A stretch of DNA of 64,000 nt, from assembly GCF_964355755.1 (NCBI RefSeq), contig NC_092673.1:17801001-17865000 (forward strand), in the 5' to 3' direction. The position numbers and the translations under genes were made by a program. The first letter of the stretch is position 1, and the number at the start of each line of letters is the position of its first letter. A model generated the notes under the pieces. The model had not been told where the DNA came from, made no database searches, and saw only the letters and a program-made list of their open reading frames with translations. Below, one piece after another: positions 1 through 61,366 of this stretch. This DNA comes from Antedon mediterranea. Its lineage: Eukaryota; Echinodermata; Crinoidea; Comatulida; Antedonidae.

Positions 1-1042
1 TGTACTGAACGGTACTACACAAATTTAGAGCAATGAATTTGTACGAATTCCGTTAAATAAACAACTCTATATATTTTATAAACATTTTTATTGATATTTC
101 CAATGTTAATATATAAAAGAAATTACTATAAAAACGTAATTATATGTAATTATTTCAGCGAAAAATGGCGCAATTTGTTTACAACGTTCGTGGCTATAAA
201 GCGTGGTTCCCACTAGCGACGCAACACACGGACGTAACGCAACGTAAGTGAATTGACCAATCACAAGCGATGGCTTATTCGCTTGTGATTGCTAACTGTA
301 TATAACTTTGCTTGTCATTGGTTAAAACGCTTGCGTTGCGTTTACGTCCTTGCGTTACGTTCTAGTGGGAACCAAGCTTTAATGATCATTTTCGGCAATG
401 TTTTAGACCCTATATTTCGAAAACTACAAGTCAGATTTTCGTAATTCTTTCTTTATTGGAATATTGAAACAAAATACCAACAGATAATGTTTAAATTGGT
501 TGAAAAATAACAACTTTTAATTTTGCATCGTTATCCCTGCTAATAAAGTGTTATTTCCGGCAAACTAGAAAGGTGCCATTTATCATGGATTTTGCGTGCG
601 AGAGTGCCATTTCCGGCCATCTAAGTGTGTCCTGTAACAAAATTCGCTTCGCCACAACCCCCACCATGGGGGGGGGGGGGGGGCTGTTGCTCAAATACTC
701 AATATCTGATGTGCCCTTTTTATTGCCGGACCCACCTCTCAAAAATGTCTGGATCCGCCCCAGAGTTGCAAAAGTTATGGTAACATTGCTAGATGATCAT
801 AACATTCTGTGGTTGTACAATTTTCTAATTCAATCCATAATCTCTTACTTGAGAGATAAGTGATATAATGCAATTTTTTTCCAAAGAATTAAATGTCTGA
901 GATGTTTATGTCTACATTTCTAAAAATTGAATTTTTTATCATCTCGGTGTTGGCACTATAGTTTAGCCACACACACTCTAAACATTTTAATGCTGATGTT
1001 TATTGATTTAATTTAAAATAATGTAAATCTGATTTTTATCAG
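1..1042. other. Intron of gene A with MITE and CAGGG-type element remnant
   Basis: No coding exon was seen here. 199-378 is an inverted-repeat element, and 550-765 resembles part of the CAGGG element at 53190-53335 and ends in ggatccgcccc, like the debris at 27320. A run of about 17 G lies at 668-683. Confidence 0.5.
199..378. mobile_element. MITE with TIR AAGCxTGGTTCCCACTAG
   Basis: The two ends are inverted copies (tggttcccactag and ctagtgggaacca), followed by paired acgcaac/gttgcg stretches. It is about 180 bp and non-coding. A related sequence (gcaacaca ... ttgaccaatgacaag) starts near 63905 and runs off the window end. Confidence 0.75.
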
Positions 1043-1211
1043 TGCAAAAGAATATTCCATCGGCTATTGCTGCTCAGAGTCCAGAAATCATATTAGAGTA
1101 TTTTAAAGCCTTGAAAGAGGGATATGTCCCTGTCAATCTTGGAATGCTTAAAGTGATTGGGCAAGAAGGAGTGGGCAAAACGTGCCTAGTCAATGCATTA
1201 CTAGGAAAGAA
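1043..1211 (+). CDS. Gene A exon: P-loop (G1) of Roc domain
   Basis: The acceptor is at 1041-1042 and the donor gtaagt follows 1211. The exon starts in phase 1 and ends in phase 2. It encodes a short helical lead-in and then NLGMLKVIGQEGVGKTCL, a textbook Walker A GxxGxGKT motif. The same stretch in gene B (49310-49478) is nearly identical at the P-loop and shares exon length (169 nt) and both phases, which confirms the boundaries. Confidence 0.88.
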
Positions 1212-39449: not shown

Positions 39450-39474
39450 ATGAACAACATGGCATCTACTAAAG
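39450..39474 (+). CDS. Gene B first coding exon
   Basis: Two in-frame ATGs occur, at 39450 and 39459. The second has the stronger context (aacaacATGG). An in-frame TGA at 39435 blocks extension upstream. The exon ends in phase 1 before gtatta and joins exactly to the phase-1 acceptor at 41043-41044. A tttcacag before 39402 could be the acceptor of a 5' UTR exon. Confidence 0.7.
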
Positions 39475-41966
39475 GTATTATTATCATTATTATTACATTT
39501 CTTTACCCAGGGTAGCCCAAACAGTTTAAACTTGTTTTCATTGGTGCCCAGTATGCAACATTATACATTTTTACAAACTCAGCAGATACTTAGTTATTAA
39601 ATACAGCAAACAATACACTTACAGAAGTCTCAAATCAACTGGCAAATTGTTCCATATATTTGTTCCACTAACACAAAAACTTGTGAGGTAACTCTCCTTT
39701 TTAGTAAAAGGGACCTTACGTTTCATAACAGTGGACTGTCTTATTTTACTAGTTGTTTAAAGTGCCGTGAATAGGTTTGTCATGCCTATGGGTGTCAAAT
39801 TGTTGAGACATTTGAAAACGAGAGTGGCTTTTTGTAATACCACTCTTTTGGGAAAAAGGAAGCCATTTCACTTTTAAAAACATTTCTGATGATGGGATAA
39901 GAAAATCGCAGTTTGGAATTAGTCTAGCTGCTCTTTTCATACACTTGTTAAAGACACCTTCCCTACGTTTTTTAGATCTATTTTAAGATCACAAACTATA
40001 TTTAATGTAAAAATAATACTATATATGGTCCTATTGCGATAACTTTTTCGTCTTTAAATGGTTAAAAATGTGAAAAATAAGTCGATTCTAATAATTATAG
40101 CGGCCCGCTATAAATCCCAAAATGCATTGCGCACGGATTGATATTTCTGTTTTTCTTCTGTAATTCACCCACTTTTCGATTGATCGTGAGCCAAAATAAA
40201 TGGAAGACTCCTAACTTTTCAGCGAAAATACCGGGTTTTCCCCAATTTGTATTAACGGAGTCTGGCAAAAATAGAAAGACAATTAATGCAGCAACTATAC
40301 AACATCAGGCTAGGTATGTAGCTAGCGTACGATGTTCGTACGTTACCGGTGTTTACCAGCTAGGCCTACAAAACTAAGCCTAGGCCTAAAGACCGTCCAC
40401 GAGAGGTCAGTCGCCGCGAGCTACTTGAGTAGTGCATTGTTTCTCATCATAAATCATAATTTACCATAAAACGTACATTTAAGACAAGGAATGACCTGGT
40501 TTAATGTTTTTAAAGTAATATATATGTATTATTTTTACAAAACGTCACAAATTGTAGGGAAGGTGTCTTTAAGCAAAGTATTATATGTGATATATATCGC
40601 CCTCCCCATACTGTACAGCAGTAGTCCAGCGATGGTCTAACTGAGCTTACATAGAGTATGCGTGGAGGGGGGGGGGGGGGGTGCGGGCACAATACCGTAC
40701 TCTGCTTAACATACCAAGTTTATATGTAACTGTTTTCATCAATTATTACCCCTAGGCATTTACAACGTATTTCTCTAACAAGTACAGTATCAATATTAAT
40801 ATTACAATCTACATTGGAAATTTTTTTTTTGGATCTGATGAGAGCATAGATTTAGTCTTTTTAGCATTTATTTTGACATACAGTATAAAATTACCAAACA
40901 AATAACAAAAAATAGAATCTCTTGGCAACTGAATTCAAAGTAAAGTTGTGCATTTGGTCAATTCTTTAGTTACTACCAGATAAACTTTACTTATATGCAG
41001 ATGAAACCACAATATACATCTTGCATCTCATTTTTATATTATAGAAATCTCGGAGGCTGATTTCAGGCAACTGGTGGCTGAAATAGAAAATTGGTATGAT
41101 CGGAATGGATATCTCACAAGACTGAAACTTTTATACAAAGACCATCTGCAGTTCGGTAGAGCTAAAACTGTTTGGGATCTACTGAATGATTTATCAGCCT
41201 CTGGAAGTTTGAGTTCATCAAACCTTACTATTCTATATGACACAATAACGGTAACCAAGCAATTTGGCTTCCAGTCAAATGTTGAGAATCAACCTCCAGA
41301 AGATATTAAGGATCATGTAGTATCAATGTTGACACCTTTCAGACAGAAAGTTTATCAGTTAGGACTACAACTGAAAGAGAGTGATGTATACAAACTAGAT
41401 GCTTTATATAACACTCCACTGAAGAAATATCAAGACAGCTGGAGTATGATAATGGACTTTGAACATAGAGGGATCATTGATGAGGATTCCACAAAGATGG
41501 TTCAATTTCTTAGATTTTCAGAAAAAATTGGAATGACAAAGGCTAGAAGGATTTTTGTTGGTTGGTTTATTTGTTTTTTATTTTGTTTCTTTCAAATCAT
41601 TGTTCACTGCTTAATAATATTTGCTACATACAGCACAATCAAGTGAGCGTACTGAACCAATCAAATATTTTAGGCAGATTCAAATTTGTTCATTGGTTTG
41701 TTTGGGTTTTTTTGCCAATTTATTGTAACTTAAAAGCACTCCATTGTCATTCAATCAAATAATTTATTAGTAATTAATTAATACATAATGTATAGGTATT
41801 CTATTGACAATTTATTATTACTTTAACATTTATAATGCTTGCTGAAATCAATCTGAAGTCATTGTATTGCTTTTAATTCTAATATAGTTTTGATATTGAA
41901 ACAAGTAATTTCTGTCCAAAATACTGAGACGATGAATGGAGGTTATAGCTGTAGATGTACTGTATG

Positions 41967-41998
<32 letters not shown>

Positions 41999-44900
41999 GA
42001 ACTTAATTTACTCAAAGCAAAATTAAACTCATAAAGTCAGTTAATTATAGAATAGAAATATATCATTGGGATTAGAATTCCTTTTACCCTTAGCATTATT
42101 TTTTAAATATTTTTTATTTCAACAATATTTTACAAGGGTGGTCCATCCAGCCGAAGCTGATCACTAAGGACCCTCACATAATTGCGTTGCAGAATTTTCT
42201 GGGATTTTTTTTTTTTATATAACCTATTCGAAGTGGTGTACTTTTTATTAGCAACATTATTAAGTGACGAACTACAAACGAGTCTGTAGTGTTTTTTGGC
42301 AAGTTTATAACATAAAAATATTTGGCGGACCTAGGCACAGTCTTTCCATATACCAAACCAAAAACGTTGTCTAGCAATTGTGCTGTTGCTATACCACCAG
42401 TTTACTGCCTTTCTTGACCTAGTACTATTTTTAGTGGTACCGGTATCGCAAGAATCATGAATAGCAGCAGAAATTTGTTTTCATAAGTTGTCAATAGAGG
42501 ACTTTTTTTAATACTGAAAACCCGTAAGGGTCTCATAAGGAATTTGGCCTGTCCCCTTGTTAAAGCAACGGTTGCAAATAATAGCAGCCTGTTTCACTGC
42601 ATATGTCCAAAAAGTTTGGAGGAGTCCAGAATCAAGTAATATGCATCTTCCTATCTCAAAAAAGGTTCTTCCAGCAGTGCCGTTCTGGTGCAAAGAATAC
42701 CTGCCTTGATGTTGCCATCTTGGTCCCAAAGTGTAACAGTTTTATCCCCATGCATTAGCACAACACTCCGTTGATGCATGAAACATCAGCAAGTTACATG
42801 TAGTTGTTTTTATTCGCTCTTCACTCTTTGTCATCATGGGTGGCACTATGATAATAATTACACCATTTGAACAGTTGTGTGTTTTGCTCAGAAATGCATT
42901 CACTTTATGTCCACTGCCTCCGCAGTTTGGTTTTGCTCTTGTCAGCATCATAATGTTATCAGACAATACATTTTCCTTACTAAATCTTTTTGTTGCGGTT
43001 CTTCAATTCTTCTTCGATTTAGTGTGAATGTCATTACTCCTGTACTATTCGGTGAGGTTGAATATTTTAAAGCATGAACTTATTCCATACATATGAGCCT
43101 ATTCACAGACTTAAACCTATTCATAAGTATGAATTCATTCACACAATCATGATGAACTTATTTATAAATATAATCTTTTTTTAAATATAAAAACCACTTT
43201 ATAAGAACACGGATTACATTTTCGATTCATCAAAGGAACATGTATACCAGTAAATCTTATTACAAAACATCTTGGATAAATCTCGATGCTCAAAAATAAG
43301 TTTCTAAATTTGAAAATAGTGTATGTTACAGTTGCAACAACTAAGAGAAAACTAAACATATCTATTTTCTTTGGATTCCTATACAATACAAGTACAGTGA
43401 GCTTAATGATATTTCTTTATAAATATTTTTACATTTAGTCTAACCGTTTTAAACATCTTTACAATGTAAAGATATTTTCATACTCATCTTCAATATTACA
43501 TCGTTCAAAATGATAATTTTCCATTTATACATTTTTTCGTATACAAGAAATTAAATAATGCAGGAGTTAGCTAATTTCCAAATTTCATTCCAACTCAATT
43601 CATACATATCTTTTCCATTTTTCTTAATTTTATGATATACATAATTGTTTTCATGATCAGTTCTCAATTAATATGTTAGACATCAATACAAATAAATTTT
43701 GTTATATATCAGAATATCATAGACATTTGAGAGGCGTTCATTTTCACAAGTGGTTGAAAATTTTAGATAGGCCGTGAAAACGAACCCTTCTCCCCTCTAA
43801 TTTCTACGACATTCTAGCAAAGAATGACAATTTTAGATAGGCCCTAAAAAACGAACCCCCTCTAATTACTATGATATTCTGATATACTGTATAACTATTT
43901 TTTTTTATTAATGTCTAACATAGAGTTGAGAACTGATCGATTATGAAAAATATTTATGAATTTGAATTGAATTGAAATATATATATACTGGGTAACCTCT
44001 TCAGTCAAAGACTGGTCTCCCAGAGGGCCCAGTTGGTGATCAGTGGCTGTGATGTACTAATACACCGGGGTAACCCCCTACTCGTCTCGAAAGATGTACT
44101 AAGTTCTTTAAAGTGCACACGAGCTAGATGTGTACACTGGACCTACGGTTTATAGTCCTTATCCGAGAAGACTCGTTCTACCACCAGAACCATGGAGTGA
44201 GTGAGCCTCGAACCCCTGCCGATGTTATGGCTACGTAATTACGGTTCCACTGTCTTAACCGCTCGGCCACTCACTCACTCGAATATCACTATAGAACTTT
44301 AAAAAAACAGAGGGGACATTCTAGCAAAGGGGGGTTGAAAATTGTTGATAGGCCGCATAAAAATGACTGTTAAAGAGAAGATATTAGTAAGCTGTCTCCT
44401 AAGGCGTTGTAGTGCTGTTGCATATCGTTCCGCTCTTAAACTATATTCTGTAATTGATTCATCATACACTTAAGTATTTCCCATGCCTCTTTACCTTTAT
44501 CTGGAGTGTCACGCATGACAAGCTCCAGGCTCTGATCATCAATGTGGAGTACAAATTTCTGAGTTCCCTTTCGAATTGGGCGCATCGTCTGTTGGTGTTG
44601 CTTTGCCAGTTATTGTGTCTGTTAATTTCATTCCGGCCAGATGGGCTAGTAGAAATGAGTAGACCATAATTCATAATGTTCTGCTTCTCCGTCAAAATAA
44701 AGTTGCTTAGAGCTTGTGATGCTGGGCCCATAACCTGTTGTATCCAGCTCAGCCATTTTAGGTTAGGTCCTAAGGACACCAACACTCAATCGAAATTAAT
44801 TGCAAAAATAGTATTTCTATGCTATGTACGCTATGTGCACAAAAGTGTGTGCGCAGTGCAAACAATTTTGTTATGCTCAAAATGCGAAATTGATTTTGAG

Positions 44901-47900
44901 TATTTTAAACACACCATTTTTATTTTATAAAAAGGGCATTCCACAGTATTGTGACATAAGTTGACAATTTTAAAATTGTGTATTGTACTGTACATAAATT
45001 AGAACATATTCAGATTTGATTTATTAAGTTATTCATCATCATACATAGTACAATGATAATTGTTTTCTTGGCAGAAAAACACAAGCAAAACAATACACAC
45101 ATAATATTTACATTCATGATCAACATGGAAATTAGCAACTGATAAAGCAATATAAAATACAAATGACTTCATCTTACAAAATTTGCATCTTAATTTATAC
45201 TAAGAAACATTCACTGGTCTAATGTTAGACACCAGTGTACTGATATACTGTAGGCCTATGAAATATTTTTGTCAAATACTAGTTTCTCATCATTACCATT
45301 CCAAATTATTCGCATTATTGCCTTTTAATTTAGAGTTAAATTTTGTTGTATCCTAATTCGAGTAACATTTTATGTAAGTTTTTTATTTTTTATTATTACA
45401 AAATATGTTTTTGTATTATACTCTATACTGTATATACAGTAAGAATGAAGAAGGTAGATTGATTAATTAATTTGTCAGATGTATTTTATATTCTACATAA
45501 TTTACTACGATAAGCCTATTATTACTTTTGTAATTATTCATTTAGTATTGATATTTTGTCTATATACAGAATCATCTGAAGATTTTCGGACAAAACCAAC
45601 ATCTTGGGAAATGTCGGACTTACAAACCAAGTTCAACCACCTCAAATGTGATCTTGGCAAACACTATGATGGGGAAAGATACCTTTGGCTAAAATGTTGC
45701 TTATTTGATGTTATTCCTAGAGCAGACCTCACACGTACTGATTTCATAGCAACTGATCTGTTCAATGCGCTCCATGACAACAGTAAAATCAAACCGGATG
45801 ATGTCACCATCCTTTTTGAGGTTGCCGAATTATCAGGTTTGCAGCTTGCTGTAGATCTTGTAAAGCAGTATATGGAAGATAACAACGTCAAAGGTACTGG
45901 TGACAAGTTATCCTCTTACCGGAAACGGTTATTTAGGGCTCTGAAAGAAGTTGGACCAGACAAGTTACAAGATGTCGTTGCTTATTATGGCATTCGAAGA
46001 TTTGGTTTTCAAAACATGTGGGACGTAGTGTTTTACTTGGAAAGCGTTTTACAGCTTGAGGATGAACCATCAAAATTAAATGTGTTTGCTGCACATATTG
46101 GAATGCGAGCAAGAAATATTTTATGTAAGTATTTAATTTTCTATTATAATATTTTATTTCTGTTCCATGTGGAAGAAAGAAAGTTATGGATAGGTATCGT
46201 TAGACTGTTATGCTTTATCATCATCATTACTTCATCATAATTATATCTCAGTCGTTGTCATCACTATTCATCATTATCAATCAAAATAAAAACTATACTA
46301 ATGCTATTATTATTGTTTTATTACATTATATAGGCCTTCTTAAAAAAACAGTACCCGAGTCAGTGTCAGGGAGGATATTTGGAGGTAGTGATTATTCTAT
46401 TAAAATTCAGACAATGTTGGTACAAGTATCGTATTGGTATGACGAGCATGATTCACTTGATATGCTGAAGGTGTTGTGCAAAGATCTGATAACGCCTAAC
46501 AATGCTCTACAAAATGCTGACACCACCATGGAGTTGTTTGATTTATTGCAACAGGCTGGGTGTCTTTCCACTACCAACTTTAAAGTTCTTATCGATATCA
46601 TCAATATCACCGGTACCAAAGGTGCTCTTGAGGCTAACAAATATCTGAAGAACATGTTTGATGAATCTGATCATCATGTTACATCTTTTACAACGTATCG
46701 ACAGAAACTGATAGATTTCGGCAAAACACTTTCCCAAGACAATTTAAGAATGCTGATCAGTCTAAACGATGTTTCTAGGAGACAATGTGTCAACCAGTGG
46801 ACTGTGATACTAGATCTTGAACAAAGGGGCATCCTGAGGGAAGATACATTGCAATCATTTATCAAACATTTAAAGGAAAATAAGATGACTGTTGCTGCTG
46901 AAACGTTAGAAGGTTAAGTTAATTCTCAGTATTATGTACTAAATAACTGATAAGTTTGTCTGTGTACTGCAAGTATAGATCATGAAATGGTTTAATTTCT
47001 ACTTTTTAAAATTAACTCTATATTATAATTAAAATAAGAGGAGAAAAACAGCTTTTTTTCAGAACTCAATATTTATTTTTTACTTAAACTATGACACACA
47101 CCTACAGTATTCTATTTTTTGGTCTGAAATGCTTTGTGTTCTTCTCCTTATTTCTCCAGTTTTTGTGTTGTGTTAATATTTTTATAATATGTTACTATTA
47201 CTGTATTTATTACAATAGCATTTTAATTAATACTTTTTTTCTTGTTTATTGGAGTCTATAGTTAACATTTTAAATTCTTTTTTTTAATCTCATAATGTAA
47301 TTTTATTTATTATATAATAATGTAGTATTTATATAGTTTGTAGATTTATTTTGTCAGATGTATTTTATATTCTACATAATTTACTACGATAAGCCTATTA
47401 TTACTTTTGTAATTATTCATTTAGTATTGATATTTTGTCTATATACAGAATCATCTGAAGATTTTCGGACAAAACCAACATCTTGGGAAATGTCGGACTT
47501 ACAAACCAAGTTCAACCACCTCAAATGTGATCTTGGCAAACACTATGATGGGGAAAGATACCTTTGGCTAAAATGTTGCTTATTTGATGTTATTCCTAGA
47601 GCAGACCTCACACGTACTGATTTCATAGCAACTGATCTGTTCAATGCGCTCCATGACAACAGTAAAATCAAACCGGATGATGTCACCATCCTTTTTGAGG
47701 TTGCCGAATTATCAGGTTTGCAGCTTGCTGTAGATCTTGTAAAGCAGTATATGGAAGATAACAACGTCAAAGGTACTGGTGACAAGTTATCCTCTTACCG
47801 GAAACGGTTATTTAGGGCTCTGAAAGAAGTTGGACCAGACAAGTTACAAGATGTCGTTGCTTATTATGGCATTCGAAGATTTGGTTTTCAAAACATGTGG

Positions 47901-50900
47901 GACGTAGTGTTTTACTTGGAAAGCGTTTTACAGCTTGAGGATGAACCATCAAAATTAAATGTGTTTGCTGCACATATTGGAATGCGAGCAAGAAATATTT
48001 TATGTAAGTATTTAATTTTCTATTATAATATTTTATTTCTGTTCCATGTGGAAGAAAGAAAGTTATGGATAGGTATCGTTAGACTGTTATGCTTTATCAT
48101 CATCATTACTTCATCATAATTATATCTCAGTCGTTGTCATCACTATTCATCATTATCAATCAAAATAAAAACTATACTAATGCTATTATTATTGTTTTAT
48201 TACATTATATAGGCCTTCTTAAAAAAACAGTACCCGAGTCAGTGTCAGGGAGGATATTTGGAGGTAGTGATTATTCTATTAAAATTCAGACAATGTTGGT
48301 ACAAGTATCGTATTGGTATGACGAGCATGATTCACTTGATATGCTGAAGGTGTTGTGCAAAGATCTGATAACGCCTAACAATGCTCTACAAAATGCTGAC
48401 ACCACCATGGAGTTGTTTGATTTATTGCAACAGGCTGGGTGTCTTTCCACTACCAACTTTAAAGTTCTTATCGATATCATCAATATCACCGGTACCAAAG
48501 GTGCTCTTGAGGCTAACAAATATCTGAAGAACATGTTTGATGAATCTGATCATCATGTTACATCTTTTACAACGTATCGACAGAAACTGATAGATTTCGG
48601 CAAAACACTTTCCCAAGACAATTTAAGAATGCTGATCAGTCTAAACGATGTTTCTAGGAGACAATGTGACAACCAGTGGACTGTGATACTAGATCTTGAA
48701 CAAAGGGGCATCCTGAGGGAAGATACATTGCAATCATTTATCAAACATTTAAAGGAAAATAAGATGACTGTTGCTGCTGAAACGTTAGAAGGTTAAGTTA
48801 ATTCTCAGTATTATGTACTAAATAACTGATAAGTTTGTCTGTGTACTGCAAGTATAGATCATGAAATGGTTTAATTTCTACTTTTTAAAATTAACTCTAT
48901 ATTATAATTAAAATAAGAGGAGAAAAACAGCTTTTTTTCAGAACTCAATATTTATTTTTTACTTAAACTATGACACACACCTACAGTATTCTATTTTTTG
49001 GTCTGAAATGCTTTGTGTTCTTCTCCTTATTTCTCCAGTTTTTGTGTTGTGTTAATATTTTTATAATATGTTACTATTACTGTATTTATTACAATAGCAT
49101 TTTAATTAATACTTTTTTTCTTGTTGATTGGAGTCTATAGTTAACATTTTAAATTCTTTTTTTTAATCTCATAATGTAATTTTATTTATTATATAATAAT
49201 GTAGTATTTATATAGTTTGTAGATTTATTTCGCATGCTATTGTTCATTTTTGCTTGATTGTTGAACTTAATTTACTCAAAGCTATTTTAAAATCTTATTA
49301 TATTTTTAGATAATTTTCCAACATTTCAATATCCCAATATTGCTGCTCGTGATTATCAAGATGCATACAATGAAGCCTTGAAAGGAGGGTCTGTCAAAGT
49401 GAATCTTGGAATGCTTAAAGTAATTGGACAGGAAGGAGTGGGTAAAACATGCCTCATTAATGCATGTCTTGGAAAAGAGTAAGTAGTAGGACAGTGAAAT
49501 TGACATTACAAACTAATTGTGAGCAAACTAAGAATTACAAACCAGCCAACTTTTATTGATTTGTTTTTGATAAACTACTACTTTCTAAATATTGCAGTAT
49601 AATAGATCTAACAATAGTTGAATAAAAACTTTTAGAAATATATAAATCAGTTACTACCTAATCATAAAACCATCAAATTTTCTATAGATTATAGAATTTA
49701 ATTTTAATCTTGTATTCTTTCTAGGAAAAAAAATCATACGAATTGTTGAGTAACTTGACTTCCTAAATGTATAATTTGCTTCCAATATTCTTAAAGTCAT
49801 GTAAGGCACAATTGGCTAGTTTTATGTACATTCTTTAATTTAACTGTACAAAAAGGTATTTTACCAAAACAATTGAAGGATGCAAATGTTGTACCTATTT
49901 TCAAAAGAAATGGAAAACCCAAAGACGAAATGAAAAGCTATCGTCCAGTGTCTTTAACTCCCATAATTTGTAAGATTATTGAGAAATTGCTTTGCTATCA
50001 TTTAAGGGAATATCTAGAATATAATAATATCCTTTCAGAAAATCAGTTTGGGTTTAGACAAATGTATAGTACTGAACTTTTACTTTCAAAGGTTTTTCAT
50101 TCATGGGCACAGAGCTTAGAACTTAAAGGCTGTAAAAATATTGATATTATTTTTCTTGATTTTTCGTCTGCATTTGATAAGGTGTCTCATAAAAGATTAA
50201 TTAAGAAACTTAATAACTGTGGCATTGGTGGAAACACTAATGCATGGCAGGGCCGTAGCCAGGATCTGTCAAGGGAGGTTCGGACAATAAGTATTTTATT
50301 CCACCCAATCATTCACACATGAATTAAAAAATTCATCGACAAACGAAATATAGCCTATATTCATTCCTTTTAAATATTAGGCATATTGCCAAGGCTAATA
50401 ATCGATTTGTCCATAATTATTGCGTTTTGCCGGGGGTTTTCCATAATCTAAGGCCAATTTTTAGGCCAAATCATAATTGTGCGTAATACGTCATAACACA
50501 TGTGGTTTTTTTCTTGAGGAAACCGGGGTGGCGACCTCGTGGGTTGATGCATGGAGAAATCAGTTTTCTGAAACCATGATTTCTCCATGGTTGATGTCAG
50601 TAATTACCACGTTGTTTGATTTTACGACGCGAGATCGTGTTTTCCCCCGGAAGGCCTACAGTACAGTGTTAACTGTTTGGCTTAGCATCAACCTTATTAT
50701 TCGATGTTTTCCTTTACTAAACACTGGGAAATATCACTGTGTTTTATTTGGTAACTGTCCGTTCAATACTTAAAAATATATTTAAGCTTCATATATATTT
50801 TATTTATATTAAAATATCTGGTAGTGACTGCCGCTATTTTGCCTGTTGTTGTTACTGATCGTTCAGGCGTGCAATCGGCCAGTCTAGTCAAAGATAGTGT

Positions 50901-53900
50901 AGTAGGAAGATGTTACACTTCGCTCAAAAATTAGAGAACCGCTCGAGATAGGGCGCCTCTCACGACGAGTAGGGATAGACGAATCTGAAACATGAGGAGC
51001 GCAATGGCAAAGCCCAATGAAAATGGTGTTTTCGGCAATAAATTGAAAAAATAAGCCACAAAAAACAAACAAAAACTTCTTTTTTGTCTTTATTATACAA
51101 AGTTAAAAATTAATATGATGTTTTCATACTGTTTTTGGATCTTTTTAATTGTTAATACATTTATTTGGAGTGAGTTTTGTCATGACATGACTGTAAACAC
51201 TGAGCTAGGATCAGGAGGAGGCTTACGCGCGCCTGTAGACGCATTCATGAATGGATGGTGGTCATCTCGTACCCAAACCAACCCGTACCCAAACCAACCC
51301 GTACCCATAAAAACTCTTACCTATCTTGGTAAACCCCAGTTAAGTCTGAAGTCATAATGCTAATTTTACAGTATACAGTATTGTTGTTGACAAACAATAT
51401 ATGATTTATGAATAAATTATAGCAATTCTTCTGCAATTTCTATAAAACTCTAGGGGTAGAATCTTCGTTTCTATAGAAATTATCTGTTTCTATAGATTAA
51501 CATAGAATTCTAAAACTTCTATAGATAGAATATTTTGTGTAAGGGTAGTATAATGAAAGGGGGTAAAGTAGGCCTCCCCGCGGATATTTTTTCCTTGATA
51601 TAACCTTACCAATAATGAACTCATCATTGGCTTATAATTAATATTATCAATAATGTTAGGCATTACATAATCAGGGCATATACAATTACGATGAATGCAC
51701 GAACGTTCGGAGTGTTACAAGCATAATATAATAATTAGTTACAGTATTATTAAATTATTAAAATTAATAGATAATTAACAATAATTGTTTTTTTTTTCAG
51801 TAAAAAAACATACTCGTAGTCCTAAATTCCTATAATGTTCAAGCCTACTGGTACCGTATTCAGTTTATGCAGATCGACTATTTGTATAATATTATTGATT
51901 ATAATAAATATTGATTGATTGATTGATTATTGATTACATGCCATACTACCTATTCTCTTTTATTACCCTTAGAAATAAACCATACGTAATGGATTATTAT
52001 ATAGGCATACACAGTGTAGGCCTATTTACCACTATAGGCTCCTAATATATTTATTCACTCTGATGAAGAAGTGTTTCTAAAGCTAGGTATTACATTTTCT
52101 ATCTATGTCCAATGATAAACAATTAAATGTAAATAATTTTAAAAAGTTCAATTGATTTGCAAATAAAAAAATTAAAATAAAAGAAATAAAATACGAGTAG
52201 ATAAATTCCAGGTACCTAAACAATTCCAGGTAATTGAAACACAAATTTGTATTCCAAAACATATAAATATGATTCATTTGCACTTTCTATAAAGATAACA
52301 TTACATTTTATATGTTAATTCTTATTAAATCTTAATTTTACAGTCATATTATTCTTCTGTTATATAGCCTATTTCCTATACAATAACTTTCCGTATCCCT
52401 ACTCGACGTGCGAGGCGCCCTTTAAATTTTAGCTCCATGTTGTCTCGCTTTTATTTGCATTGAACGAATAGGAAGTGTAACATCTTCCTACTACACTATA
52501 TCTTTGGTCTAGTGTAGCAGCACCTAGCGTTGAAATAACTCATTGTTTACTTGACAATGACATGCTGATAATGACTTTCGTTGAATAAACAACTATACGT
52601 TGAAAGCCGTTCAACACAACGCAAACACAACGCAACGACAACGTGTTGAATGCGTTGTGATTTTTGCAATTAATTCTGTCCTGTACTGTAGTTCTGTATT
52701 TCCGATGCGTGTAGTAGTACCCTATTTATCTTCATTTCCGTACGTTCGTAAATATTAGGCCGAATTTCCGTAGTAATTTATAGACGTTCCGAAATTTGAA
52801 CCGTGTTATGCGGGTAGTAGAGCAAAGTTTTCTTCTTTCTGCAAATGTCCTATCATTATTTTCTTTGTTTTATTTGGAGTGTGGTTTAAAACAACACTTT
52901 TGTAAAGTTTATAGTGGATAAATAGAAATGAATTTTTGGAAATTGTGGTTTTAACATCTGACTTTATTTAGCATTTTTAAATGAATTAAAATTCCAAATT
53001 ATACAATTTAACCTTTTGCTCAATATATTTATAGCAACAGCTTCATATTTTTTGTATAACTTTTTAAAATTATTAATTGATAATTAATTTACATTAATTG
53101 AGTACAGTTATTAGAATGTATTACCGTACCAAAAGTACTATCATTGGGGACTTACCCGTGACGTTCGCATTGAACGAAAAAAAAATTTATCATGAATTTT
53201 ACGTGCGAGAGTACCATTTGCGGCCATATAGGGGTGTCATTTAACAATTTGCTTGCTCAAATACTCAGTGTCTACAGCCCTGGAGTCTTTGGGCAACCCT
53301 CTTAAAATAGTCCTGCGACCGCCCCTGATAGCTCTATCTATATTTATTTACAGCAATTTGTTGAGGAAACTAAATATATCAATGTAAATAGGTGGTATTG
53401 CTACAGTTGAGTAGGCCTACGTATCGGCTGGTGGTCTAGAACAAAATAATCGAATGCTATAATGTAAACTACAGTACATGATACCATAGACATTATAGTG
53501 TAATATATTAATATTCACTATAATCCTCTATGATGATGATACACTATACTTCATAGCCACACATACATATTGTAGGTAACCACAGCGTTCCATTTTTTTA
53601 TGTACGTCGGAAGGCTATATACTTTATGCATGCTGACTGCCAGTGATCGAAACAATAGGTACGCGGTTGTCTAGCTGTGTCCTTTGTACGATTCGTTGTG
53701 CCCAAGCTCGCGCCAATATCATGTTACATCCTGGGACCAAAAATTTGTATTATTTTTCAGGCGAAAATCGGCAACCAATTCATTTGTATTCACGAACGAG
53801 TTTACAAATTTTTAAATTTACAAATAACCTTTTGTATTGTGGGGCACGTATTTGGAGGATTTTCAGAGATGAGAGTGGTGAGGTATTGGGGATGTTGTGG

Positions 53901-56900
53901 ATGGGGTTTCGCAGTGGGTTAGGGGGGGGGGGGGTTCGCTGTAAAGGGGGTTCGCCCGAACCATAAAAACCCCCCCTGGCTACAGGCCTGCATGGATTAC
54001 AGATTTTCTTTCAAATCGACGCCAAAGGGTTATTTACGGAGGAGAAGGTCAGAGTGGGTAAATGTTACTTCAGGGGTACCACAAGGGTCAGTTTTGGGCC
54101 CTTTTTTATTTTTGATTTACGTAAGTGATATTGTAAATAATATTTCTTCTTCACTTTTTCAATTTGCTGTTGATCACACATTATCACGTCCTATTTATAA
54201 CAATAATGATTGTAAATTGCTTCAAAAGGATTTAAATTTAATTGCTAAATGGGCAAATGTAAACAAACTTCCCTTAAATCCTGTCAAGTGCACCGTAATG
54301 CGCATGTTACAAGATGTAAAGAGATCGTTAACTGGGATTATACCATAGAATCAGACAATATTCCTAAAGTTACAGAATTCAAATTTCTAGGTGTGTATGT
54401 AAATAGTTCGTTGTCTTATCATACACAAGTTATATGTTGTAAAGCAAGCAGATTGCTTGGTTTCATTTCAAAATGTAGTAAAAATATGTCCTGGTTAGCT
54501 ATGTTGAACTTATACAAAGCTCTATTACTTCCAGTGGTTACCTACTGTTGTTCAATGTGGGCACCATTTGAGAAATCATATATTAATAGAATAGAAAGTA
54601 TACAAAGGAAAGCAACAAGGATAATAATGTTTAGAAAGGAAGGTTCCTGGGACACATCTTATTTTCATAGGTTGAAAGTGCTTGAATTATTATCTATTGA
54701 TTGTTTAAATTACATAGACTTTCATTAGGATTTAAGGTGTTGAAAGGTTACTGTCCCCATTCTTTCAATGAGTATAATATTAAGACTAGTGAAAGATGTC
54801 CGGGTAGGCTTTTACGTTGGAATTCGAAAGGCAATATTTTTCATAATTCTGTATTTGTTTCCTTTCCTAGACTATGGGAGCAAATACCAAATGACATAAA
54901 AGATTCACAAACAATTTCAATATTTAAGGCTGCTTTAACAAAACACTATATTTCATGTTATGTATAGTTTATTTGTATTTTTCTTGTTTATGGTTTTATC
55001 TTAACTGTTTGTATTGTATGGAGTGAGTGCAGAATCTGTTTGGGCTTTAGCCTATTCTCATTTCTGGTTATTTTTACATTGATGACCGAATAAATATTAT
55101 TATTATTATTATTATAATTAATGAATATATAAAATGGTTTTGAAGTAAAAGGAGAAAAGTGCATGTTTTACAGTACCTGTACTTAAAATGACTGAAGTTC
55201 ATAGTTGGTTTCAAATATTTTTGCCAGATTTGAGGAAAAGCATGTAGTTACAGATGGCATAGCCGTGATAAGAACAGCAAGCACAACATGGAAAGAGGCT
55301 AATGCTGATAGTGGTAAACATGAATACAAATTAGCATATTACTCTTCCCATCATAACTGGCTATGTAACATTATTTATTATTTATCATTAATCTCATTAT
55401 CATAGACACAAACAGGCCCACAATGAAACGGAGGTGTAGAATGGAATTCAATAAATGTATACAACCGTAGTACTGTATGGTGTGAACGGTCTTATTTTCA
55501 CATACATTATACTAATACAATTGTTATGATCTCTTAGCACGCAAGCTATGTTACAGTGTTTGATGATGTATTGTAATTTTACATTAATTAATCAATAAGT
55601 TTGACAGTTGTCCAAAGTATACTTACGTATTAATGTATCTGCTAAAATAATATGTGCACACTGTCTTTTTTTCCCACAGGTAATCCTTCAAATCAGTATA
55701 CAAAAATGGTCACTGACAAACTGAGAGCAAGGAAAACTGTAAGCATAATGTCAATAATAGTGTAATAAAACATAAAATAAATAAAATATAAGTACCTACA
55801 GCACATTCCTACTATTGCAAACCAGTCACTTACAGAATGCAATGAGACATTATGAGCAGCTATTTTAATGTTTTAAATTTCTAATTATTGTTTTGAGAAT
55901 AAATATTACTTTTTATTTCTATTAAAGGTAGACAGTATTCAATATTTGATGAATATGTGTCAGGTTAACATGAAACCATCTACAGAAGATGATGATGGTA
56001 TTGTTAACTACAATATTGATGACAACAATGATGATTACAAAAATGATGGTATGTAACTTTTCCGTAAATTCTTATCTATTACATTTTGTAGTAAAAACAC
56101 TAATAAATAAGTCTTATATTATGAGTTGGCAATTTTTCATAGTTATTTGAAATAATTAAGATAATATTATAAGATTTTCTAATTTAAAGTAACTAAATAA
56201 CTATAACATTATTAAAATTATGTGCTCAGATTTAGAGGCAACCTATCTGTGTAAAAATTATGGTCACATAATTTTCTACTATGATAATGACAACTATAAT
56301 TAACTATAACTTGGAGACGAAATATCATCTGTGTAACAATTATGATTGACAGTCATACATTTCTAGACAGTGAAAACAAAAGTTATAATGATGACATTAA
56401 AAATGAAAAACAAGGATGAAAATAATAATGATAATGATGACGTGTTAGATATTAATAATGGTGAAGCCTGCATCTATGTGGTAGTGGGTGGTGACTTTAG
56501 CAATGATGATGATAATGAAAATTACAACAAAGAGGACAACTAAAACAATACTCATAATATATATATTAATATACTGGGACTTAAATTTGTCATTAAAAAT
56601 GAAATCATTTGCATATTTTTTATATTACTTGTATGTAAAAAAGCTTGTTTCCACTACAGGTACTGATACAGCTACTAAAGCTGTTCCATTTGATACAGAA
56701 CAGCAGTTTGATAAGAATGTAATCAAGAAAGTTGAGAAAAATAAAGAAGAGACTTTGGAAGAAACATTCAACATCTGGGATCATGGAGGTCAAATGATAT
56801 ACCATGGTATACATCGGGTAAGTTATAATATATGTTATTGCCTTGTAAGTTGATATTTTATTGTTTAAATACTTTCTACACATTTCTATAATAAACAGCC

Positions 56901-59900
56901 AGTTAAAAAGATAACATAATTGGTTTCATTCTAAGAGCGCTATATCAAATTTGTAATGTAATGTAATAATAACATAATTGTATGGCCAAGGTATAGTTTG
57001 CCTTTTTCTCCATTCAGTAATTGTAATCCAATGGTTAGTGCTTATATAAAATGTTGATATATTACAAATTTTCTATAAAAACAAGGCAAGTATTTTTATT
57101 AATTAAATTATTTTCTTCAGTTTTCAATCATAATTGATTTTAGCCACATTGTTTATGAATTTGTACCAGAGAAATAATTTATATACTTTATATATTAGAG
57201 ACCACTACAGAATAAATTGTACTTGTTCATAGGCCTTTAAGAATATTAATCGAATATTTGAATAACAAGCACATTATTTTTTCCAGATCTTCGTAACATC
57301 AGAAGCACTTTACATCGTAGTGTTTGATCTCAGTGTGAACCTCGAAGATCGTGCTATCGTCATTGATCCTAATGGCGTAAGTATTGTAAGACTAATTAAG
57401 GTATTGTAGTTGAAAAAGCACTTACTTTTTTTTAAAGTAATTTTGTTTTGATTTTGTTTTTTTTGTTTTTTTCAGAAAAAGCATCAACATCATTGGACCA
57501 ATCTCCAGTTCATATTATCTTACATCCTGTCAGTTTATTCTCATAGTCGTATTGTGAAAGAAGATGCAAAGAATGAAGTTAACAAACCAACTATCCTTAT
57601 TGTGGGTACACATAAGGGTAAGCTTGGCGAGACTGAAAAAGAACAAAATGATGAGGTAATATCTATTTCTAGCCACAATCAGGTATTACTGCTCCATAAA
57701 TTTAAAGAAACTGAACTAGAATACTTTATTAAACAACTTTATCAGGCATATAATATAAACGGTTTTTAAATGATAAAAATATTATTTTAAATATATGACA
57801 GTATATGACTAATGTGCTCATTACATAATATATATTTTCTACATTTTTATAAACTTTTTACAACCAGGCAAATATAATTTTTGAGAAGGTTCAAGATGTT
57901 CTTAGAGGGAAACTGTATGAAGAACATATATATCAATATTTTGCCATTGAAAACAGCCGAGAAACAACAGATAAAAGCTTTAGTGATCTCAAAGAGGTTA
58001 TTGAGAAACTTATGAAAGCTTTAGAAAAAGATATTCCTTTAAAGTGGATGCGTTTTCGATGTGATCTTCATGACCTCAGAAGGAAAAGACATTTTTCTTT
58101 GTGTCCTTTAGAAGAGGTAAACTTTATTTTGTAACCACATTAATAATCTTACTTTAAGCATTAGAACTTAATTAATACTTTCATTAACCATGTTCTGCCA
58201 CAGTGTATTAATCAGAGGAACTCCACACCCAAATGTATAGAAACTCAGATTTCAAGATCTGAGTTTTCTAGTTTCATTCTGACCACTGAAATGGACCGAT
58301 CCATTATTAATCAGAGGGATTGTAAAAATACTTTATACCTTTTTATAAATATTTAATTGCAGTATTACCGTTATATGATTTGCAACATTTTATTAATTTA
58401 ATAATTTTTATCTGATCATAAAGTAATAATATTTCAAATAACTTATCCTCTGATTAATAATGGATTGGTCCATTTAAGTGGTTTGAGTTTTCTTACAGCA
58501 GAATGAAACTAGAAAACTCAGATGTTGAAATCAGAGTTTTCTATACATTCATCTCAAAAGTACAACAATAAAATAGACATGAGAAACAAACATTACCACA
58601 TGGTGACCTGTAATGTTACTCTTTCATATTGAAATATGGTATATAGTACTGATTAATCTAAATTGAATATATGATGATGTAAGTAAAAATGAATATAAGG
58701 AATATGAATATGTGGAAAAGAAAGTAATCTAATAACCTTGCAATATAGATAGATAGATAGAAATCTTTCTTTATTCTGGATATTCATTCAATATTTGTAC
58801 ATTGTTCTTCCTTGAAGTCCAGTTAACACTTACAAATTACAAATATAAACAAGAAAAAATGGAAAATTATGAAAACGTTTTTAAAGACTACAATATCACA
58901 AGAGGCAAGAGAAAAAAACCAGTTAGATCAAATTTTTAAACGATTGCAAAGTTAATGAATTTATAGAGCTGCGAATATCTGGTGAAAGATATTCCAGAGT
59001 TTGACTGAGCGGTATTGAAATGTTCTTTTACCAGAATCATTATGCCATTTTGGTAAGACTAAAGTGTTTTTCGATTTGCTTCTTGTATTTAAATTATGAT
59101 AATTATCATATTTCAGCTCTACACTGAAATACCAAAAAATGTTGTCCATGTAACATTTCATGCTAAAAATACAAAATTAACGTTGTTAATAAATGTATCT
59201 CTACCATGTTATAAAAACTGAATATCATTTCCTATTTAACTATTTTTTAAAAATCTAATATTATAACCATTATTTCTAGCTCAAAATGCTGGCAACTAAG
59301 AATGGTATTGAAAAAGAACAATCGGTACTGCTGAACTTCCTGTATGATCTTGGTGAAATTGTTTACATGCCTGACAACAAATTATTAAAAGATAAAGCAG
59401 TGTTAGATCCGATGCAGCTGGTTGAAATTGTTACTGCTTTTGTAACGGTCATTCCACCAAAGTTTCCAGTAAGTACAGTAGGCCATGTAATATTTCAAAT
59501 GGTAAATATGTGTTTGTGGTGTCACTCCTATGCAAGTTCGGTGCAGTTCCTTGTGAAAACATTATTTTTGATCATAGTACTTAAGAATTCTTTTTTTGGT
59601 ATAGAAGCCTGCATTTAGGAGACTTGACAAGGGCATATTGGAAGAAAAGTTGTTGCGAAAATTATGGAAAGAGCGTAAAGTTGACGAAGGAAAGAATTTT
59701 GAGTTCCTTGTGGCACTGATGATTCAATTAGGTTTCATTTGTGAAAAGACGACGACCAGCAGCCAAGATGTGGCAAGTACATCTACAGTAGGTTTTATTC
59801 AGTTATCTTTTTTAACATGTTATATTTTGTATGCAAGATTGTGTAAAAAATAATTTTTTTGGGATGATACATACTTTTTAATTAATTAATTAAATTTTAC

Positions 59901-61366
59901 ATAAAATTTCAAAATATTTGTAGAGGTATGACATATTCTGGTTAAACTTTCTGCTGAAGATGTTTTTAACATGTACAGGAAATGATTTTCGTTTTCTTAT
60001 TAAAAGAAATTTAAATGGCATTTTACAAATCAACAATTTCAGGAATGTGTTGGAAAGCGATCATTCTTTGTGCCATTACGCCTTGCTTTCAAGACATCAA
60101 CTGAAGTGGAACCAATGCCTGATGAATTTCCAGCTATCAGTATCTATTACGACTTTAAGGGATATCTGCCAGATGTATTGTTTCCATATATGATTATTGA
60201 TTTCCTCAACAAATTTCAAAAGAAAGGCGATGACCCAATACTCTTGTATAATCATGCTGAACTTTACTTCGACCAAGATCATCATGTGACCTTATCTCTT
60301 GTCAAATTTGTGACTACGGACGAGGAGGATGAAAGAAAGTTCTTGTTAAAGGTACTGTATCATATAATTTCTTGTGATTTAGTCATTTAATCTAAACATA
60401 AACTTAAATTCAGATACCAAAACATTACTTTTCTTCTTTTTTAGGTGACTATTAAAAGAACAAATGCTCCTAATGAAGCAAGTAATTTAGAACCCTCTTC
60501 TGAAGCATGTAAAGAAGTATGTTATTTCAGTTTATATCAGTTTTTAAAACTATATGATTTTTTATAGATATTTTTGTTGATTTGATTTTTTTGTAATTAT
60601 GACATAGTTTAAAATAACTTAAATATTTAAAATCACGTTTGTGTAGTTTACTTGATGTGTAATATAATTTGTAATTTTTATTGATATACATTATTAATTG
60701 AATATTAAATTGATTATTGACAATTGATAAAAACATTACATCTTTAACAAATAAATGATATAATCTTAATATTATATAAATTTAAAATACAAACAACTTA
60801 AAGTACAGTTATCAAAGCTAGTTTATAAGTGATTTTCACTGAAATGAAATTTTTATATGGTCATGAATCTTGGCCTCAATGCCTGCAATTAAAACTTTAT
60901 AAACAATAATGAGGTTTATTGTATGGTGACAAGATTTTGTTACATTTGTGACAAACTAGGTAAAATGTCGATAGTAGTGATAATTCACCTTATATTTGTA
61001 TTTTAGGAATTTATTTCAATTATTATTGTTTTACTTTTTCCTTTATAACTATTTTGTATTGTAAATGTTTAGTGAACATTTTAAAAATGTGTGCTACATT
61101 GTTTAAGTGTTAATTGCATGTTTTTGGATATTTACCTTTATATCTTTAGGTTTTGTTAACGATCCAGAAGTCATTTGCACCTACTAAAGATGGTGGTAGA
61201 AGAGGGATTCAATTCGAGAGATGCATACTTTGTGATGTATGTAGTGATACATCAGAAAAGAAACACATTCAAAATCTTGATGATTTCCAGGACGAGAAGT
61301 TGCCATGCTCCAAAACTGGCACGTATATGAGTATGGATGTTACACGTTACAAGCGGCTATTTGGAG
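39450..61366 (+). CDS. Gene B: ten DED-like domains fused to a ROCO-like GTPase (3' end not seen)
   Basis: Nineteen exons join in frame: 39450-39474, 41045-41560, 45570-46124, 46334-46912, 47449-48003, 48213-48791, 49310-49478, 55228-55313, 55680-55738, 55964-56048, 56660-56817, 57287-57376, 57476-57655, 57868-58116, 59280-59468, 59605-59787, 60043-60351, 60445-60516 and 61150-61366. They give about 1,618 residues. Residues 9-936 hold five exon-sized units with two DED-like folds each. The P-loop is near residue 976, followed by TDGI, WDHGGQ, THKG, FAIENS, the COR-like region and a Cys-rich segment. Exon lengths and phases after the P-loop match gene A, so the two are tandem paralogues. DEDs usually bind other DEDs to nucleate caspase or adaptor filaments; a nucleotide-controlled DED scaffold is the inferred role. 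The C-terminal linker and membrane exons seen in gene A are not visible before the window ends. Confidence 0.85.
39480..40720 (-). mobile_element. LINE C-terminal fragment (minus), split by a TTAA element
   Basis: The minus strand at 40600-40690 reads VSSVRPSLDYCCTVWG and at 39750-39945 KRAARLIPNCDFLIPSSEMF, consecutive parts of CR1/L2-type LINE proteins. The 617-bp element between them (39952-40568) interrupts the reading. The remnant lies in gene B intron 1. Confidence 0.65.
39952..40568. mobile_element. 617-bp element with TTAA target duplication
   Basis: TIR AGACACCTTCCCTAC is perfect over 15 bp. TTAA flanks both sides (39948-39951, 40569-40572). TTAA targets fit piggyBac or Kolobok groups. 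The interior has no clear gene. Confidence 0.85.
41045..41560 (+). CDS. Gene B exon 2: first DED-like pair
   Basis: 172 codons, phase 1-1. The first half has RLKLLYKDHL, WDLLNDLSASGSLSSSNLT and a further helix, matching the L..LC.D.I....D.L..L...G.LS..NL pattern of death effector domains. The second half (FRQKVYQLGLQL ... FEHRGIIDED) repeats the same pattern. The RxDL motif of classical DEDs is not evident in either. The donor gttggt is weak, and reading on hits a stop soon after. The unit is clearly diverged from the later four. Confidence 0.78.
42480..42729 (-). mobile_element. Ty1/copia integrase fragment
   Basis: The minus strand reads HQNGTAGRTFFEIGRCILLD, then FWTYAVKQAAIICNRC and TGQIPYETLTG. 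This is the well known region of copia integrases in which QNGxAER precedes the helix with the FW..AV motif. The flanking sequence to about 42130 continues with stops. It is a dead fragment. Confidence 0.75.
43655..43938. mobile_element. 284-bp inverted-repeat element
   Basis: The ends gatcagttctcaattaatatg and the inverse of taacatagagttgagaactg pair. Inside, a ttttagataggcc..aaaacgaaccc module occurs twice. A scrap of the same module is at 44310-44360. Confidence 0.75.
43979..44281 (-). mobile_element. tRNA-derived SINE, minus strand
   Basis: On the minus strand it begins gtggccgagcggttaagaca (A box) and continues to aggggttcgaggctcac (B box), as in Leu/Ser-type tRNAs. It then has a conserved-looking body with gtcttctcggataagg and cactttaaagaac, and an AT-rich end. 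The tRNA part lacks a proper acceptor stem. Confidence 0.75.
45570..46124 (+). CDS. Gene B exon 3 (X1): DED-like pair
   Basis: 185 codons, phase 1-1, acceptor tacag and donor gtaagt. The first fold has WLKCCLFDVIPRADL and ATDLFNALHDNSKIKPDDV, very close to the DED core (helix 2, the IPR turn, helix 5). The second has YRKRLFRALKEVG, then a helix with WDVVFYLESVLQLED. It is duplicated almost exactly at 47449-48003. Confidence 0.82.
46334..46912 (+). CDS. Gene B exon 4 (Y1): DED-like pair
   Basis: 193 codons, phase 1-1, acceptor tatag, donor gttaag. First fold: DMLKVLCKDLITPNNAL, MELFDLLQQAGCLSTTNF. Second fold: YRQKLIDFGKTLS, WTVILDLEQRGILREDT. Both follow the DED pattern and are most like exon 2. 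Residue RRQCVNQW here reads RRQCDNQW in the duplicate (48213-48791). Confidence 0.82.
47449..48003 (+). CDS. Gene B exon 5 (X2): duplicate of exon 3
   Basis: No difference from 45570-46124 was seen by eye over the 555 nt, including the intron borders. It joins in frame to exon 4 (G|AA) and to exon 6. It is part of the 1,879-bp tandem duplication. Confidence 0.82.
48213..48791 (+). CDS. Gene B exon 6 (Y2): duplicate of exon 4
   Basis: This is the copy of 46334-46912 with one visible coding change, GTC to GAC (Val to Asp) in the second fold. It ends in phase 1 at gttaag and joins to the P-loop exon at 49310 in frame. Confidence 0.82.
49310..49478 (+). CDS. Gene B exon 7: P-loop of Roc domain
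   Basis: Phase 1-2, 169 nt. It encodes a lead-in helix and VNLGMLKVIGQEGVGKTCLI (Walker A). It joins the DED array to the GTPase and matches gene A 1043-1211. The following intron is about 5.7 kb because of a LINE with nested insertions. Confidence 0.88.
50248..53990. mobile_element. 3.7-kb CAGGG element inserted in the LINE, 5-bp target duplication
   Basis: The ends CAGGGcCGTAGCCAGG and the inverse of cctggctacaggcctg match. CATGG is repeated at 50243-50247 and 53991-53995, and the LINE reading resumes exactly there. Sub-terminal sequence includes a G run (53922-53935) and gttcg. No transposase was recognised. 53190-53335 resembles 560-765. Confidence 0.88.
50888..52508. mobile_element. 1.6-kb element nested in the CAGGG element
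   Basis: The inverted ends caaagatagtgtagtagga and its inverse (52474-52506) pair over about 35 bp. gtctag flanks both sides. It contains cgacgtgcgaggcgccctt near the right end and a similar inverse piece near the left, a family also represented at 35227 and 38645. No gene was recognised. Confidence 0.75.
55228..56048 (+). CDS. Gene B exons 8-10: switch I and short D/N-rich insert
   Basis: Exon 55228-55313 encodes VVTDGIAVIRTASTTW, the switch I region. Exon 55680-55738 is a short basic helix. Exon 55964-56048 is a 28-residue Asp/Asn-rich insert, much shorter than in gene A. Acceptors are gccag, cacag and gtcag, and phases match gene A at every join. Confidence 0.8.
56660..57376 (+). CDS. Gene B exons 11-12: G3 motif and following strand
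   Basis: Exon 56660-56817 has a charged coiled lead and FNIWDHGGQMIYHGIHR (G3). Exon 57287-57376 has IFVTSEALYIVVFDLS behind a normal ttccag acceptor, the site that is ttctaa in gene A. Donors are gtaagt in both. Confidence 0.86.
57476..57655 (+). CDS. Gene B exon 13: G4 region with THKG
   Basis: 60 codons, phase 0-0. It has HHWTNLQFILSYI, then PTILIVGTHKGKLGETEKE. As in gene A, the expected Asp of THxD/NKxD is Gly. The charged block before it occurs once here and twice in gene A. Confidence 0.85.
57868..58116 (+). CDS. Gene B exon 14: end of Roc, start of COR-like region
   Basis: 83 codons, phase 0-0, with QYFAIENS, an amphipathic helix and IPLKWMRFRCDLHDL. It is the close paralogue of gene A 7865-8107. 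Confidence 0.85.
58228..58556. mobile_element. Palindromic MITE in gene B intron 14
   Basis: The two arms of about 100 bp (tgtatagaaactcagattt ... ggaccgatccattattaatc and its inverse) pair around an AT-rich centre. Ends: tgtatagaaa and ttttctatac. Confidence 0.85.
58746..59165 (-). mobile_element. LINE 3' end, minus strand
   Basis: The minus strand reads NTRSKSKNTLVLPKWHNDSG, then a short Lys-Arg stretch, FQYRSVKLWN and a stop, the usual C-terminus of CR1/L2-type proteins. An aataaag signal and an (ATCT)n tail at 58746-58760 follow. It lies in gene B intron 14. Confidence 0.75.
59280..60351 (+). CDS. Gene B exons 15-17: COR-like region (59280-59468, 59605-59787, 60043-60351)
   Basis: The three exons encode LLNFLYDLGEIVYMPD (a better match to FLHDLG than gene A), FEFLVALMIQLGFICE and RSFFVPLRLAFK with IYYDFKGYLPDVLFPY. 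All are phase 0-0. Intron 14 before them holds a palindromic MITE and a LINE tail. Confidence 0.85.
60445..61366 (+). CDS. Gene B exons 18-19: Cys-containing segment (60445-60516, 61150-61366)
   Basis: The first exon (24 codons) has a single Cys, where gene A has CDLCPQAC. The second has RCILCDVCSDTSEKKHI and LFGG, ending in phase 1 at gtaaga. Reading through that donor gives about 45 more codons to a stop at 61501-61503, so an alternative soluble end is possible. No counterparts of the gene A linker or membrane exons were found before 64000. Confidence 0.78.

Follow-up and report, generated by a model that had tools for sequence, protein, structure and literature searches.

In a 64,000-nucleotide stretch of the Antedon mediterranea genome (the window; contig NC_092673.1, positions 17,801,001 to 17,865,000), we found tandem-DED exons directly upstream of a Roc-COR GTPase. 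On balance, sequence comparisons suggest that the DED exons probably make up a DED-only gene, or a set of alternative DED 3' ends, and that the ROCO gene next to them belongs to an expanded crinoid DED-ROCO family. The locus spans positions 39450-61366 of the forward strand, on which all its exons lie. Here, 19 exon stretches separated by 18 GT-AG introns, consistent in phase, yield a single open reading of 1630 amino acids; an earlier sequence-only reading of this DNA had claimed one continuous reading consistent in phase.

Tandem-DED exons

The locus begins with a short exon 1 (39450-39474, MNNMASTK), the probable start of the gene that carries unit A: the junction between the two, MASTK/EISEADF, resembles the N-terminus MASSKEISEDDF of the predicted A. 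mediterranea protein P0015 (P numbers denote proteins retrieved by our searches). Five tandem-DED exons follow, namely units A (41045-41560), B (45570-46124), C (46334-46912), B' (47449-48003, a copy of B) and C' (48213-48791, a copy of C). Pfam recognized DED in two stretches of unit A (E = 4.5e-7, 30.5 bits), below the gathering cut-off of 35.9 bits; C (3.6e-9, 37.2 bits) and C' (37.3 bits) exceeded this cut-off, and the match to B was very weak (E only 0.1, 13.3 bits). The AlphaFold model of unit B is nonetheless a tandem DED, and structure prediction of B and C gave death folds, two six-helix folds in tandem. The double DED folds proposed from the sequence are thus upheld for the two modeled units and suggested for A by its Pfam match. 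Of the other domains that had been proposed for profile searches, Roc and COR-A exceeded their cut-offs (see below), and none of the five DED exons matched CARD in Pfam with E up to 1.

The DED units of P0001, P0015 and P0049 are 64-65% identical to unit A, and the closest relatives of B and C, at 75-84%, are P0009, P0011, P0012 and P0050. Chance open reading frames as the origin of the units were ruled out by the Pfam matches, the folds and the relatives at 59-84% identity. Identity to the tandem DEDs of caspase-8 and cFLIP is about 20%, and Pfam found no caspase match in the DED exons. Tandem DEDs of the caspase-8/FLIP type assemble through DED-DED contacts, with RxDL and its partners as filament-forming contacts.

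Near-identical copies of units B and C

The block 45471-47351, which carries B and C, recurs at 47350-49230 (offset 1879) with two mismatches in 1881 positions (46790 and 47247), introns included. Given this near-identity, either the array has only very recently grown from three units (six DEDs), or the copy is an assembly error. The proposal of ten DEDs in five units stands as to the five double-DED exons, but B'C' is a near-identical tandem copy of BC. One coding difference separates the copies, a V in C against a D in C', at a position where P0012-P0014, P0051 and P0052 have E, D or N. Both this valine and the near-identity down to the introns would be expected if B'C', or the whole BC block, were an assembly artifact or a very recent non-functional duplicate, leaving at most six DEDs; the block edges are clean, however, and the frames are open in both copies, and we consider this explanation very improbable.

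Roc-COR GTPase and its G4 motif

The Roc-COR-like GTPase that had been predicted downstream of the DED units was confirmed by Pfam: the spliced part at 49310-61366 matches Roc (4.5e-15, 56.4 bits; cut-off 27) and then COR-A (5.8e-13, 49.4 bits; cut-off 35.3), the order found in ROCO proteins, and profiles of its relatives match Roc of LRRK2 as well as both Roc and COR of bacterial Roco. The first Roc exon (49310-49478) holds the P-loop GQEGVGKT (G1) and is 82-86% identical to P0001, P0004, P0005 and P0006; the next (55228-55313) reaches 93% identity to P0005 and P0006. Two short exons form an insert in Roc, one (55680-55738) matching P0004-P0006 at 67-71% and the other (55928-56048) without a tblastn match to the retrieved proteins. 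G3 (DHGGQ) and G4 (THKG) lie in exons 56660-56817, 57287-57376 and 57476-57655, where motif search placed G4 in the last, and the open reading frame holding 56660-56817 gave a Pfam Roc match of its own (8e-4). The end of Roc and COR, seen as COR-A on the spliced reading, occupy exons 57868-58116, 59280-59468, 59605-59787, 60043-60351, 60445-60516 and 61150-61366, with per-exon identity to P0002 of up to 98%. The reading meets no stop up to 61366, and the retrieved proteins, searched by tblastn, had no match past 61400. On the 5' side, a gap of 518 bp lies between C' and the first Roc exon; the locus showed no separate ROCO start exon, and the annotated starts of P0019 and P0023 are the methionine of MLKVIGQE, inside that first Roc exon.

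The canonical G4 motif is N/T-K/H-x-D, its aspartate confers guanine specificity, and an intact motif is not required for ROCO membership. In the present Roc this aspartate is missing, and the guanine specificity of a THKG Roc may be weakened. A "nucleotide-gated" platform, as first envisaged, is consistent with the presence of G1 and G3, but appears less secure than assumed with THKG at G4. The motif search matched G4 in 37 of the 53 retrieved proteins: THKG or THKA in 22 (one from a soft coral and 21 from Antedon, among them the second ROCO half of P0003), THRD in all six Anneissia proteins (three being isoforms of one locus), and THMD in eight proteins of a second Antedon Roc-COR type. A single loss of the aspartate in Antedon seems less secure because the soft coral protein also lacks it.

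Crinoid relatives and mosaic origin of the locus

The first protein search returned 18 matches, 15 of them from A. mediterranea; the Roc-COR search returned 38 (31 A. mediterranea, six Anneissia japonica and one soft coral), and the DED search nine (eight A. mediterranea and one Anneissia). Together the searches found 53 different proteins, of which 49 are crinoid by name and two (P0018 and P0048) come from other organisms; the set includes finds of the DED query, isoforms and partial models, and its counts are not genome frequencies. In the first and third protein searches, scoring covered the candidates with the most words in common with the query (7974 and 7995), and candidates were 0.55-1.75 times the query in length; relatives that are longer or diverged may have escaped.

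The predicted A. mediterranea Roc-COR-DED proteins (P0019, P0002, P0001 and others) reach 87% identity over 95% of the Roc-COR query, the best match among the candidates scored, and carry the same A, B and C types of tandem DED as the locus. Their DED pair lies mostly after COR: a DED segment stands there in 29 of the 44 COR-bearing proteins among the 53, including P0032 and P0033 of Anneissia. DEDs precede Roc in two of 42 Roc-matching proteins (P0001 and P0034) and, by Pfam, in a third, P0042 (two DEDs, 4e-27). The P-loop was found by motif search in 18 of the 53; since only 15 have at least 60 residues before it, DEDs before Roc would have been missed in many. Five DED pairs in one protein occurred in none of the 53, retrieved by candidate-limited searches. 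The proposed link between DEDs and Roc-COR agrees with these relatives, in that DED-ROCO fusion is predicted repeatedly in crinoids.

The predicted relatives mix the same parts in several ways. P0042 has its two DEDs before Roc, P0015 and P0053 have A-type DEDs before NACHT, and P0010 reads kinase-Roc-COR-Death-Death. The B/C relatives P0009, P0011, P0012 and P0050 lie on a 22.27-Mb contig and have the second Roc-COR type, 24-28% identical to the present one, which is itself closest to proteins on a 36.19-Mb contig. With B/C, A and Roc-COR nearest to different relatives, the locus is a mosaic, consistent with the shuffling of symmetric-phase exons; it could also stem from a chimeric assembly.

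One transcript or two

The phase agreement of the 1630-residue reading is little evidence for one protein, and as proof we rejected it: many exon orders would read through, given that all five DED exons are symmetric (1-1) and that the first Roc exon is entered, and the last COR exon left, in phase 1. We scored the 19 donors of the reading with a generic donor-frequency matrix. The four weakest were those of exon 1 (AAG/GTATTA), A (TTG/GTTGGT), C and C' (-1.25 to -1.90), and the other 15 scored at least 0.76; B, with GTAAGT, scored 1.93 versus -1.79 for C. Weak donors may still be real at this locus, since that of exon 1 is weak and this exon is supported by homology. Left unspliced, C and C' read LEG and then TAA (46915-46917 and 48794-48796), one codon past the unit, and six of the seven C-type relatives (59-81% identity) end 0-3 residues past theirs, these six being paralogues and not independent cases; the C unit of P0009 continues. 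The ends of the relatives and the stops in C and C' point to C as a putative terminal exon. The only poly(A) signal to follow is the weaker ATTAAA, which starts 111 bases after each TAA and, in AT-rich DNA, is weak support for these ends.

We favor a locus of an Antedon-like crinoid in which symmetric-phase tandem-DED exons shuffle directly upstream of a ROCO GTPase gene. The DED exons would belong to a transcript of their own (exon 1-A-B-C, with six DEDs) that ends with the TAA of unit C, or would provide alternative DED ends, and Roc-COR (49310-61366) would be a neighboring gene that probably gains a C-terminal DED pair beyond the window, as in its closest relatives. Both sets of exons are credible in their own right, as B and C fold as tandem DEDs and Roc and COR exceed their cut-offs. 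In the two closest proteins found, P0019 and P0002, a B-type DED follows COR, as a DED segment does in most COR-bearing relatives; P0049 is a predicted DED protein in which neither Roc nor NACHT was matched. The likeness of exon 1 to the P0015 N-terminus, the weak donors of A, C and C', the stop just past C and the C-type relatives ending there, and the nearest relatives of B/C and Roc-COR on different contigs all agree with this two-gene arrangement. However, the 518 bp between C' and Roc leave little room for a 3' UTR, a promoter and a 5' exon, and a separate ROCO start exon was not found. DEDs are predicted before Roc in P0001, P0034 and P0042, that is, in three of the 15 proteins with at least 60 residues before the P-loop, and many other relatives are partial models beginning within Roc, in which such DEDs would be missed. 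The weak donor of the homology-supported exon 1, the weaker poly(A) signal, the non-terminal C unit of P0009, the paralogy of the other six C relatives and the fact that all relatives are predicted proteins likewise count against it.

Some N-terminal DED-ROCO product is possible, although we would not expect one, and it could arise in two ways. A single mRNA, A-B-C-B'-C'-Roc-COR, would encode a ROCO protein with ten DEDs (ancestrally six) at its N-terminus, a nucleotide-controlled platform for DED filaments. All 18 introns being GT-AG and in phase over 1630 open residues agrees with this, as do the DED pair directly before Roc in P0001, the two DEDs before Roc in P0042, and a C'-Roc gap of intron size with no other ROCO start exon; the symmetric phases make the agreement uninformative, though, the linking donors are weak, the close C relatives mostly end at the unit, DEDs mostly follow COR and the G4 aspartate is missing, and we regard a single mRNA as rather unlikely. 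Slightly more doubtful still is a crinoid ROCO with three to five caspase-8-like tandem DEDs at its N-terminus, an array expanded by duplicating exons in tandem, as a built-in death-effector filament seed controlled by a Roc-COR dimer without the canonical guanine-specificity aspartate. Alternatively, the DED exons may serve as a cassette, in which the stronger donor of B or B' is spliced past C' onto the Roc acceptor at 49310 (phase 1); short DED-Roc-COR isoforms would then exist alongside DED-only isoforms that end at C. The much stronger donors of B than of C would suit such splicing, P0034 links a B-type DED to Roc via a linker, and brown algal ROCO genes, with LRR exons described as shuffled and alternatively spliced in an excerpt of PMC11378527, offer a likeness; but P0034 could be a gene-predictor merge of two tandem genes, and we think the cassette improbable.

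Roc-COR domains dimerize. In the favored arrangement, such dimerization would cluster the tandem DEDs, which would then recruit FADD/caspase-8-like partners by DED-DED contacts, and DED-only products might serve that pathway as adaptors or decoys. With DEDs joined to Roc-COR, a ROCO protein could seed or cap a death-effector assembly.

Relation to known systems

The ROCO groups given in an excerpt of PMC6337361 are LRR-Roc-COR, LRR-Roc-COR-kinase and DAPK1; these carry LRRs, kinases or a death domain. The locus resembles DAPK1 in its Roc-COR tandem, which DAPK1 joins to a death-fold domain (PMC6337361, in excerpt). It differs from DAPK1 and the other groups in that neither a kinase nor an LRR was matched by Pfam in the five DED exons and the spliced Roc-COR, past whose last exon the C-terminus lies, its death fold is a tandem DED and its G4 is THKG. 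Excerpts of PMC9334734 and PMC5094078 describe proteins of Aplysia and sea anemones that combine Roc-COR with TIR or death-type domains, and one of PMC2575513 describes DED-NACHT fusions in amphioxus and sea urchin; these receptors too fuse DEDs to a nucleotide-binding domain, but the neighbor here is Roc-COR, not NACHT. DED together with TRADD-N domains has expanded in marine invertebrates, including echinoderms (PMC8195603, in excerpt). Among the open-license PMC papers listed by our searches, none was seen to describe a DED-ROCO fusion or a ROCO protein of crinoids.

In crinoids, many ROCO genes appear to be linked to tandem DEDs of the caspase-8/FLIP type, placed before or after Roc-COR. 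A DED-ROCO protein would place a death-signaling adaptor directly on the ROCO switch, whereas the reported link between LRRK2 and FADD is in trans (PMC5823876, in excerpt). Such proteins would offer a natural test of how DED assembly is coupled to the state of the ROCO switch, and would show if specificity for the nucleotide still counts without the G4 aspartate.

Other genes and elements in the window

A second ROCO gene, a member of the same family, lies upstream on the forward strand (about 1036-11016, and 15336-15569). Its Roc-COR exons have best per-exon identities of about 50-70% to A. mediterranea proteins, and its probable C-terminal transmembrane exon (15336-15569) resembles P0007 (35%, E 2.4e-4). 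With tblastn, this gene and the 24-kb gap showed no DED match beyond chance, the one P0042 match (E 0.48) being on the other strand. We therefore rejected the DED units as the C-terminal end of this upstream gene, given its probable transmembrane end, the N-terminus-like exon 1 of unit A, the distance of about 24 kb and this tblastn result.

Mobile-element traces occur in two introns of the locus. The A-B intron has a short open stretch on the reverse strand (42508-42741) with likeness to a Copia-type integrase by eye and no Pfam match, and the first Roc intron contains a broken reverse transcriptase in two forward-strand parts (49795-50319 and 53923-54345, Pfam RVT_1), a LINE-like insertion.
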